Of a stretch of 47,963 nt of DNA, positions 9,859-13,166 are shown piece by piece. The position numbers and the translations under genes were made by a program. Position 1 is the first letter of the stretch; the number at the start of each line of letters is the position of its first letter. The notes beneath the pieces were generated by a model. The model saw nothing but the letters and a program-made list of their open reading frames with translations, made no database searches and was not told the DNA's origin. The DNA comes from Candidatus Saccharimonadota bacterium (GTDB lineage Bacteria > Patescibacteriota > Saccharimonadia > Saccharimonadales > UBA4665), in NCBI GenBank assembly GCA_029288485.1, contig JARIHC010000001.1, positions 1 to 47,963 of the forward strand, read 5' to 3'.

Positions 9859-9915
9859 AAATAAAATAACTATTTAGAAGCTGTAGCGGACTAAGAATTA
9901 AAGAAGAGTGATGGT

Positions 9916-10147
9916 GCCGGGGCGATAAATCCGCTCTGTTAAACATTACTATGTAGCGCTTATCGCCCAATCGGCTAAGACTGACCGCTCTATTGACCTG
10001 TAAGGTTATAGAGCGTTAGACGGATAGATTCCGTGAGGGTGTCAACGCTGGCACCCGATAATGTGTTCGTAAGCCCGATCCGGTTGCACCTGATCAGCCC
10101 CGCGAGGCTTCCAAATCTGAATTGTTGTTTTTGTTTTGGTGACTTAC
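9916..10147 (-). ncRNA. Structured RNA of unknown family (R1)
   Basis: The stretch 9859-10271 has no gene but holds this RNA. A strong promoter places the 5' end near 10147. The first nucleotides (complement of 10141-10148) pair with 10068-10075 (8 bp, one G-U). Further perfect helices are 10052-10056 with 10037-10041, 10030-10034 with 10020-10024, 10008-10015 with 9986-9993 (8 bp) and 9960-9968 with 9920-9928 (9 bp). The initial segment is A/C-rich and unstructured. There is no tRNA-like end or tag reading frame as in tmRNA, and no RNase P or SRP core. It may be an independent RNA or the leader of the membrane-protein gene starting at 9858; no U-tract terminator was found. Confidence 0.55.
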
Positions 10148-10271: not shown

Positions 10272-12872
10272 ATGTCATTGGAGTTTGCAGGAGCTGAAGG
10301 CTCCGCTTCGGTTCCGGAAAAAACTCTCCATCCTTATCAGCAAGATATGATGGGCGCCATTTTAGATGCTCGAAATAATTGGGTAGAACGGACGTACATC
10401 GATTCCGCCACCGGCACAGGTAAGGATTTTGTGATTGCCCAGACCGTCAAGCACTTTGTAGAGCTCAACCCTTCCGAGCGCACACTTTATTTGGCGCATA
10501 ACCGCTTTGTTTTAAACGAAGCCGCCAAAGAAATAGCAGAAGCTAACTCTAGCATCACCCAGGGCCGCATGTTCGGCGGCGAGTTCCAAGACCAAGAACA
10601 GATCACTTTTGCTACATTTCAGACTCTTAACCGGCCTCTTGGAGCCGGCCGGGCATACGAAGCTTACGATCCAGAGGAGTATGATCTAGTTATTGTTAAC
10701 GAATCTCATCATGCCCCGGCTGACACCTATCGGCGGGTCATAGAATACTATCGTCCCGAGCTGCTACTTGGAGCTACTGCTACCGCCGAAAGGCGCGACC
10801 AGCAAGATATCAAAGAAATCTTTGGTGAACCCGCCTACACACTGAAACTAGAGGAAGCCATTGCTAAGGGATACTTAGTGCGACCGGATTATCACGTACT
10901 AACAGATCACGTGCACCACCTAGACGAATTCAGCGGCAAACTTGAAGGCGACATAAGCTATAAAGACCTTCAAGAGATCAACGGTAACGTTTTAGTGCCG
11001 CAGCGCGACGAAGAAATTATTGATACCGTTGTCGAATACATTAAGAACATAGACAAGCCTCGACCTCTGTTCTTCTGCGGCTCCATCGCCCACGCCGAAC
11101 ATTACAACCAGCTATTAAACGAGCGTATGCCCGGCATGGCTTCAACAATGCACTCTGATCTAACAGATAAAGAACAAGATGCGCGCATGAAGGCCTTTCG
11201 TAGCGGTGAAACTCCTGGGTTATTCGTTGTTGATATGTTCAACGAAGCTGTTGACGTACCAGAGATTAACGTTGTGGTGTTCCTTCGCTCTACCGAGTCC
11301 AAAACAGTATTTTTCCAGCAACTGGGCCGCGGCCTGCGCAAGATAGCGGGCAAAGACACGGTTACTATTTTAGATTTTGTAGCTAATTGGGAGCGCCTTA
11401 GCACACTGCAAAGACTGCAATCAAACATTAAGCGCCATCGGCAACGCGGACCCCGCGAGCTTCGCGAGATAAGCGCTGACATAAGCTTTAACTTTTCTCC
11501 AGAGGCCATGGAGGCTGTTAAGGTTGTCGAAGAAGCTCGAGAGCGCGAACGGCTGCGAGCACCTAAACCAAAGGAAACGCCTCGGTTAGATAAATGGGCA
11601 GCCGAAGACACCGAACTACAAGAAATGTTGAGGCTTGAGAAGCTACCAGCTCGAAAGCGCTTAAGTGCTAACCAGTGGGATCAGTTGGCAGAGCGCTTAG
11701 CTAAAGGCGACAAATCCGTTGTTGAAGAAATTGTTCTCACAGCTCTTCCTAAAGCTTATGGTACCGCCAAGAATTACGCAGCTCGAATAGATTCTAACGA
11801 ATTAACTCTTGAGGATCACTTTCATCACGCTGTTGAAGGTATTTACGACGGAATGAGGCGATACAAACCGGATAAAGGCTCGTCGCTGCGTACACGAGTC
11901 GAGTTCGGTGTATACGCCACCATGAGCCGATTAGCTAAAAATAGAGGTCTGATACGCATCCCTATCCATGTACAGGACATGTCTGAAAGAATCGACAAAG
12001 CTAGAGAAAAGCTCATACCGGAACTTGGCAGCATTGTGCTACTGGGAGAAAAGGAATTCGACGAGAGGATAAGCGATGTTAGCGGCATAGATCCGGAAGC
12101 GATTGACAATATGCGCCAGCTCGAAGAACTGGTTGGATACGAAAATCTTTTGCCTGTCGAGGCATTAAATGACAAGCCGGATGATTCGGTTATAGCCCCA
12201 GATACTTACGCCATAAACACCTTCAATAGAGAAAAGATGAAAGAAGCCTTAGAGGAGTTAAGCTACCGTGAACGCCGCACTCTAGAGCTGCGCTATGGAT
12301 TAGGCGGCGAAGCACCCCAGACCATAGATGAAGTAGGCCGTGTATTTAATGTAACAAGAGAACGAATCAGGCAAATCGAGAACCAATCGCTTAAAAAACT
12401 GCAGCTCATGCCCGCAGCACAGCATTTGAGAAGCGAGCTAGACACCGGCCCATACAAACCGTCTAGAGGCCGGCAGAGACTAGAACAACAGCAAGAAGCA
12501 CAAAGACAGCTGGAGCGTATGGCTTCAAGCGCTCTCAGGGGACCTTTGTCTTACGGGGATACTCTGCAACAAATTGCGGACGAAGCAGGATTATCTATAG
12601 CTGGGGTCTCACAAGCCGCCATGCGTGCCCTATCCTCGTTGGCTTCGTACGCTCCGTCCTCGCGATACATCGAGAAAAAGAGTTTACTCGACTATATAGA
12701 AAAAGTAGTACTCAGAGAAGAAAGCGGGAGTTTAAAAGCAGTAGGTTTAAGCTACAACGACTACATTAACACGCTGAATAAGATGGAAGAACATGGCCTT
12801 ATCCATACTACTCGCAATGAGCGCGGGACCATTATTGAGTCGGTCGCTTTGGCAGTGCGGATTGGTTTTTAG
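10272..12872 (+). CDS. SF2 helicase fused to a sigma-70 family domain, 866 aa
   Basis: Residues 18-390 form a ResIII/XPB-like SF2 helicase: motif I SATGTGKD (45-52), Ia LYLAHNR (72-78), II VNESHH (142-147), III GATAT (167-171), IV LFFCGS (266-271), V near VVDMFNEAVDVPE (319-331), VI QQLGRGLR (349-356). A charged linker (about 395-460) leads to sigma region 2 (about 465-570, ending NRGLIRIPIHVQD), a region-3-like stretch, and region 4 (about 652-711, SYRERRTLELRYGL then TIDEVGRVFNVTRERIRQIE). A further 110 residues may hold extra winged-helix DNA-binding units. The reading frame is continuous, so this is a true fusion. The Walker A Thr is Asp52 and the motif II Asp is Asn143. Inferred role: RNA polymerase recruitment coupled to duplex translocation or opening. 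A repair or defence role is the alternative. Confidence 0.9.
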   Translation: MSLEFAGAEGSASVPEKTLHPYQQDMMGAILDARNNWVERTYIDSATGTGKDFVIAQTVKHFVELNPSERTLYLAHNRFVLNEAAKEIAEANSSITQGRMFGGEFQDQEQITFATFQTLNRPLGAGRAYEAYDPEEYDLVIVNESHHAPADTYRRVIEYYRPELLLGATATAERRDQQDIKEIFGEPAYTLKLEEAIAKGYLVRPDYHVLTDHVHHLDEFSGKLEGDISYKDLQEINGNVLVPQRDEEIIDTVVEYIKNIDKPRPLFFCGSIAHAEHYNQLLNERMPGMASTMHSDLTDKEQDARMKAFRSGETPGLFVVDMFNEAVDVPEINVVVFLRSTESKTVFFQQLGRGLRKIAGKDTVTILDFVANWERLSTLQRLQSNIKRHRQRGPRELREISADISFNFSPEAMEAVKVVEEARERERLRAPKPKETPRLDKWAAEDTELQEMLRLEKLPARKRLSANQWDQLAERLAKGDKSVVEEIVLTALPKAYGTAKNYAARIDSNELTLEDHFHHAVEGIYDGMRRYKPDKGSSLRTRVEFGVYATMSRLAKNRGLIRIPIHVQDMSERIDKAREKLIPELGSIVLLGEKEFDERISDVSGIDPEAIDNMRQLEELVGYENLLPVEALNDKPDDSVIAPDTYAINTFNREKMKEALEELSYRERRTLELRYGLGGEAPQTIDEVGRVFNVTRERIRQIENQSLKKLQLMPAAQHLRSELDTGPYKPSRGRQRLEQQQEAQRQLERMASSALRGPLSYGDTLQQIADEAGLSIAGVSQAAMRALSSLASYAPSSRYIEKKSLLDYIEKVVLREESGSLKAVGLSYNDYINTLNKMEEHGLIHTTRNERGTIIESVALAVRIGF

Positions 12873-12984: not shown

Positions 12985-13166
12985 AGCACTTGAACAAATC
13001 TAGTGCTCAAAAACAAAAACGACCAACAGACGGAACAACGATTTCTCGCAAGTCGTTGTTCCGCCAAAAGAGAGACACCAAAACCTTAAAAACCAAACGC
13101 CAAACAAAAACCTTAAATTATTCTTAAAGCACCTTGTCTTTCCCGGGACAGGGTGCTTTACTTTTT
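12985..13166 (+). ncRNA. Orphan small RNA with own promoter and terminator (R2)
   Basis: The gene-free stretch 12873-13201 carries a complete small transcription unit. Hairpin 1 is AGCACT (12985-12990) with AGTGCT (13002-13007). Hairpin 2 is an 11-bp stem CGGAACAACGA (13031-13041) with TCGTTGTTCCG (13053-13063). A long A/C-rich, almost U-free linker follows and contains AAACCTTAAA twice (13081-13090 and about 13108-13117). A 13-bp terminator closes it. I see no credible open reading frame. No known RNA family is recognised. The linker looks suited to base pairing with other RNAs, and its ACCUU cores could face Shine-Dalgarno sequences, which is inference. Confidence 0.7.
13126..13166 (+). terminator. 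Intrinsic terminator of R2
   Basis: AAAGCACCTTGTC (13126-13138), 8-nt loop, GACAGGGTGCTTT (13147-13159), then ACTTTTT. The 13-bp stem (one G-U pair) with a T-tract separates R2 from comM. Confidence 0.85.

Follow-up and report, generated by a model that had tools for sequence, protein, structure and literature searches.

A fused helicase-sigma gene and its surroundings

The window analyzed here is an entire contig (C3) of 47,963 bases from a genome of 912 kb that is 97% complete and, judged by its size and gene content, probably belongs to a Saccharibacteria-type Patescibacterium. Within it, a single unbroken frame at 10272-12872 on the plus strand encodes P0001, a protein of 866 aa. Pfam, sigma models, Foldseek and codon usage, together with the ORF listing, agree with the initial annotation, which had described an uninterrupted 866-codon frame with a helicase and a sigma factor in one polypeptide. 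The N-terminal SF2 helicase module (residues 1-423; 10272..11540, +; Pfam, AlphaFold, Foldseek) comprises ResIII (residues 17-174; 6e-27) and Helicase_C (residues 250-356; 9e-13). It precedes a sigma-70-like module with regions 1.2, 2, 3 and 4 (residues 433-722; 11568..12437, +; profile searches, PDB, predicted model, Foldseek). Because helicase matches run to residues 420-423 and sigma homology starts at residue 433 with TPRLDKW, the join is tight, spanning ~10 residues (11541..11567, +). An internal ATG at residue 413 (11508) might allow a sigma half to be made separately. The protein ends in an extension (residues 723-866; 12438..12869, +) that is mostly helical with a final two-strand element in the predicted model and has no family match in a Pfam search. 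Over the full frame (z = +7.3) and in each of the two domains (z = +6.6 and +3.0), codon usage exceeds the null; the C-terminal extension by itself falls short of significance (z 1.2). GC is even across P0001 (0.49 and 0.47).

The neighbors of the fusion gene are an ATPase gene, yifB, IF3 and L20, all of them housekeeping genes. A terminator-like hairpin of 16 pairs (13125..13160, +) lies between the fusion gene and yifB, and the two are therefore probably separate transcription units. The flanks are colinear with those in G337, which belongs to another genus of the family: an ATPase, a small ORF and a 126-aa membrane ORF, followed by yifB, IF3 and L20. In the same gap, G337 has a 458-aa stand-alone sigma-like ORF, and the sigma half of P0001 groups with this protein at 96/96 support, a placement to be read with caution as both branches are long. 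In 22 other genomes of the family, both flanking genes are present with no such gene between them. At this locus, the sigma part is therefore an accessory gene, to which a helicase was either added in the genome of P0001 or from which it was lost in G337.

Beside the fusion gene, at 9895-10147 on the minus strand, lies a conserved structured RNA or leader that occupies the same place in 26 other genomes of the family. It has two helices, in which 13 of the 29 predicted pairs are changed on both sides, and is accompanied by a promoter-like site, TTGACA-17-TAGATT (10182-10154); an Rfam search gave no match at E up to 1. Elsewhere in the same genome, the principal sigma is encoded on C9, and another divergent sigma (564 aa), extended by ~190 aa at its C-terminus, is found at G000:C2:170027-173254 (L002). 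In many genomes of the family, additional complete sigma-70 paralogues lie close to the principal rpoD (L160, L162, L165, L169, L172, L174), several of them considerably extended at the N-terminus (the frame in L159 reaches 905 aa), and most family genomes encode proteins similar to that at L166:4476-5510, in which ~345 aa hold sigma region 4 and then HARE-HTH domains, an arrangement that recalls an RNA polymerase delta-like factor.

Conserved and replaced residues in the two modules

The helicase half is a confidently predicted fold (AlphaFold pLDDT mostly >90). Its closest solved structure is the ATP-dependent type IV restriction enzyme SauUSI (PDB 7clg; P0001 28-374 to SauUSI 232-562, 3e-44), followed by a type I R subunit, RadD and XPB, while Foldseek with the SF2 core ranks the DNA repair helicase RadD best (5e-19), with SauUSI among the top matches and XPB/Ssl2 at 2e-16. 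None of these assignments extends to the whole protein. SauUSI has intact Walker residues and further domains on both sides of its SF2 core, of which the N-terminal one is a nuclease, whereas P0001 has a sigma module instead; only the SF2 part matches a SauUSI-type type IV enzyme (236-562 of 953 profile positions) and no nuclease family was detected. The NCBIfam RadD model matches at 3e-24 but, with 85 versus 720 bits, far under its cut-off, and RadD lacks a sigma domain. XPB/Ssl2 of TFIIH and archaeal XPB share the SF2 fold, but the sequence match is weak (1e-10 for archaeal XPB, 3e-5 or worse for the human protein), no XPB Pfam model hits P0001, and XPB is a separate, catalytically active subunit, unlike the fused module here. 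The nearest helicase relatives carry HNH_repeat arrays where P0001 has its sigma module. P0001 diverges from them by ~60%, with 866 codons still open, and its helicase branch in the tree is long (1.13 versus a median of 0.53).

The initial annotation had listed SF2 motifs I-VI. In an alignment with 113 helicase relatives, 110 of which cover the motif I position, the motif positions are all present, but three of the motifs deviate. In motif I (ATGTGKDF; 10407..10430, +), the Mg-ligand Thr/Ser is replaced by Asp52 (T in 108 and S in 2 of the 110 relatives); in motif II (NESH; 10698..10709, +), the Mg-ligand Asp, found in 113/113 relatives, is replaced by Asn143, while the catalytic Glu144 is kept; and in motif V (EAVDV; 11244..11258, +), the Gly of 113/113 relatives is Ala326. 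Motif VI (QQLGRGLRK; 11316..11342, +) is intact including its arginines, and Lys51 is kept. Of the four residues expected in an active SF2 ATPase, the Lys of motif I and the Glu of motif II are thus present, whereas the Thr/Ser of motif I and the Asp of motif II are replaced. In SF2 enzymes, the motif I Thr/Ser and motif II Asp positions bind the Mg of Mg-ATP. Because both positions are replaced in P0001, normal ATP hydrolysis is predicted to be unlikely; Asp52 might, however, substitute for the lost Thr and Asp in Mg binding, and the Asp/Asn exchange may retain some activity. The earlier suggestion of an XPB-like translocase is therefore not borne out for P0001, in which SauUSI is the nearest relative, XPB ranks far behind and both Mg ligands are replaced.

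The sigma half has regions 2 to 4 in order and with a sigma fold, based on profile searches and the predicted model. Pfam recovers Sigma70_r4 at residues 659-711 (1e-16) and Sigma70_r2 at residues 499-541 with just 0.043, which is under the cut-off; region 2 becomes evident with longer sigma models (RpoD_Cterm, residues 499-721, 2e-25; SigA in the PDB, residues 455-721, 1e-18). SigA is the best solved relative, and Foldseek with the predicted sigma half retrieves SigA, RpoS and RpoD chains. AlphaFold modeled the sigma half poorly when given the full-length protein, probably owing to a mixed alignment; a sigma-only run performed better, and in this model regions 2 and 4 are confident over most of their length.

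E. coli sigma70 numbering was assigned to P0001 by motif. Like RpoD/SigA-type factors, P0001 has regions 1.2-4 in order and a canonical region 4.2. In region 4 (residues 659-711; 12246..12404, +), the -35 reading motif TRERIRQ is identical to that of the principal sigma, and H455 is kept too. In contrast to RpoD/SigA, the SF2-fused P0001 has lost the signatures of regions 2.2 and 2.3/2.4. In region 2.2 (residues 515-521; 11814..11834, +), DLIQEGN (sigma70 403-409) reads DHFHHAV, so that among the core contacts D403 is kept and Q406, E407 and N409 are H, H and V. In region 2.3/2.4 (residues 538-549; 11883..11918, +), KFSTYATWWIRQ is replaced by SLRTRVEFGVYA, whereby the melting aromatics F427, Y430, W433 and W434 become L, R, F and G, and Q437 becomes A. 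The replaced region 2 positions are conserved in 62-66 of the 66 other alignment rows. The proposed sigma regions 2 and 4 thus hold in part: region 4 is canonical, and the model shows a folded region 2 whose signature residues are lost. Loss of the core-binding surface in all homologues had been named as evidence against a sigma function; this surface is largely lost in region 2.2 of P0001 but not in the related fusion G458 (see below), which keeps DLIQEGN. Because D403 and H455 are retained, core binding through other contacts is possible.

Besides the principal sigma factors, residues 557-724 of P0001 match MzaA (9e-21), a large protein with C-terminal sigma-70 regions; mzaA has been called a sigma factor (PMC9523054). 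The MzaA match, at 74 bits, is below the 800-bit cut-off, involves the sigma part alone with no SF2 domain, and the neighbors of the fusion gene are housekeeping genes instead of MzaB-E; we therefore rejected membership in an MZA system.

Helicase-sigma partnerships in other genomes

The P0001 helicase-sigma fusion is known from one genome only. The search of Patescibacteria with the whole protein and its halves, which the initial annotation had called for, yielded no full-length orthologue in 295 genomes of the class, 93 of the family and 380 of the phylum, but did recover other fusions and one gene pair. Nor was a full-length orthologue found in GTDB contigs, plasmids, phages or IMG/VR, where the GTDB and IMG/VR scans were seeded by peptides and reach only close relatives.

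Three more single-frame fusions were found. The 1026-aa protein of G458, a genome outside the class, has the order sigma regions 1.2-4, ResIII/Helicase_C and four HNH repeats. Its helicase is the best hit of the P0001 helicase (40%) and has canonical motifs (ATGLGKT, VVDESH, EGID, QQLGRGLR), and its region 2 is near-canonical. The fusions of G246 and G058, which represent two families and are 47% identical over residues 9-650, begin with an SF2 module of a different branch and continue into sigma regions 3-4, region 2 being absent; the G058 genome is a single contig. In G405, a relative of these two fusions has the same helicase and a degenerate tail. Another sigma-like protein of G246 (849 aa; L157:4020-6566) continues past region 4 into glycine-rich repeats.

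In G493, the next best hit of the P0001 helicase has a separate sigma gene 150 bases downstream. The two proteins share a C-terminal module of 67 aa (60% identical), and this sigma stands alone in its class. Altogether, an immediate sigma neighbor is present at 3 of the 23 unfused SauUSI-type loci, compared with a rough expectation of ~0.15 adjacent loci if 3 sigma genes are assumed among 900 (P ~5e-4, or 0.01 if two possibly related genomes are counted once). Because two of the three adjacent sigmas are an ordinary rpoD gene, G493 alone is a strong case. SF2 proteins of the second branch with WhiB-like C-terminal domains occur in two families (L258:3-1814 in G361, L259:5671-7971 in G323); the domain is a Pfam match for G361 (4e-22) and was read from the sequence for G323. 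WhiB proteins bind sigma region 4. Each fusion or pairing instance is rare; nevertheless, the further fusions and the neighboring gene pair show that the helicase-sigma partnership is real in Patescibacteria, and the cases taken together support the view that SF2 proteins and the initiation apparatus are functionally linked there.

Trees place P0001 apart from the G246 and G058 fusions; however, AU tests did not reject joining P0001 with these two (p 0.18) or with G458 (p 0.22). An independent origin would thus be argued from the order and content of the domains and from similarity rank rather than from a decisive tree test, as the trees are compatible with different numbers of fusion events.

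Possible functions of P0001

Because region 4.2 is intact, region 2 is stripped and the Mg ligands of the motor are replaced, the simplest reading is that P0001 is a polymerase-associated DNA-binding regulator. We tentatively propose, with a probability of about 0.45, that it arose from a helicase-sigma partnership, binds DNA and regulates RNA polymerase, and probably lacks normal ATPase and melting activity; contact with the polymerase, contact with DNA, and a role in regulating rather than initiating are what we infer. According to this model, a nuclease-less SF2 module of the SauUSI/RadD type would have become fused, in frame, with a divergent member of the sigma-70 family, with the sigma module taking the place of the HNH-repeat array of the nearest helicase relatives. 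Sigma region 4 would read -35-like DNA and/or dock on the beta flap of RNA polymerase, the SF2 module would bind nearby duplex DNA, and the two modules could jointly bring polymerase to particular sites, position it there or block it. P0001 would probably have lost, or retained only in strongly altered form, both ATP-driven translocation and the canonical melting of promoters.

Other explanations differ in what they make of the SF2 module. We consider it unlikely that P0001 serves in defense or genome surveillance, with an SF2 module from the lineage of type IV methyl-directed restriction sensing DNA that is foreign or modified, where the sigma half would recruit, trap or redirect polymerase. 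Polymerase recruitment in repair or against foreign DNA, the other option raised in the initial annotation, may apply. The closeness of the helicase half to SauUSI-type enzymes (also PADLOC mREase_IV, 7e-44), the match of the sigma half to MzaA of the MZA anti-phage system, and the sporadic locus, at which the gene is absent between the same flanks in 22 family genomes, are consistent with this idea; however, there is no nuclease domain by Pfam, no defense gene next door, and the part of SauUSI outside the SF2 core is not shared. Rather less probable to us is a working alternative sigma that uses an ATP-driven translocase of its own to open promoters, in the manner of TFIIH/XPB for Pol II. The same pairing with a canonical helicase and near-canonical region 2 in G458, the adjacent genes in G493, and the loss of the melting aromatics in P0001, which an external melter would help to compensate, argue for it, whereas the absence from P0001 of the Mg-ligand residues of motifs I and II and of the core contacts Q406/E407/N409, as well as the lack of a fused helicase in the nearest sigma relative (G337), argue against it. 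The idea of a sigma that brings along a translocase suits G458 better than P0001. Similarly, it is doubtful that Patescibacteria repeatedly built sigmas carrying, or paired with, an SF2 translocase as a counterpart of TFIIH/XPB in one polypeptide, with G458 fully active and the ATPase of P0001 rewired through the Asp52/Asn143 exchange and not lost.

The two remaining explanations deny P0001 a function or an existence as one protein. If a helicase had inserted ahead of a dispensable, divergent sigma gene and both were drifting near-neutrally, long branches for both halves, lost invariant residues and the lack of an orthologous fusion in the family, class and phylum genomes would be expected features; we nevertheless regard decay as improbable, because 866 codons are open at ~60% divergence, codon bias is significant in both domains, the core folds are confidently predicted, and region 4.2 and motif VI are intact. 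That an assembly or frame artefact joined two genes, a caveat already raised in the initial annotation, would agree with the absence of a full-length relative from the searched collections but is very improbable: there is no frame break, GC is even, the flanks are colinear with G337, and the architecture turns up again elsewhere, for instance in G058, whose genome is a single contig.

Coupling of promoter recognition to an ATPase is known from the vaccinia early transcription factor (ATPase D6 and promoter-binding A7) and from sigma-54 with its AAA+ activator; these are, however, pairs of separate proteins from families that are unrelated to, or distant from, those in P0001. We found no description of a sigma-helicase fusion in the open-access literature. 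The parts belong to known families; their combination, its recurrence and the gene pair with a shared module look new. In the textbook view, the sigma-70 holoenzymes of bacteria need no ATP to melt promoters. Even if P0001 is inactive as a motor, its residue changes yield clear predictions. A recurrent covalent or operonic pairing of sigma and SF2 proteins in bacteria with very small genomes would be a direct test bed for whether bacteria, too, evolved motor-assisted or motor-gated initiation, and would bear on how XPB-like arrangements arise.
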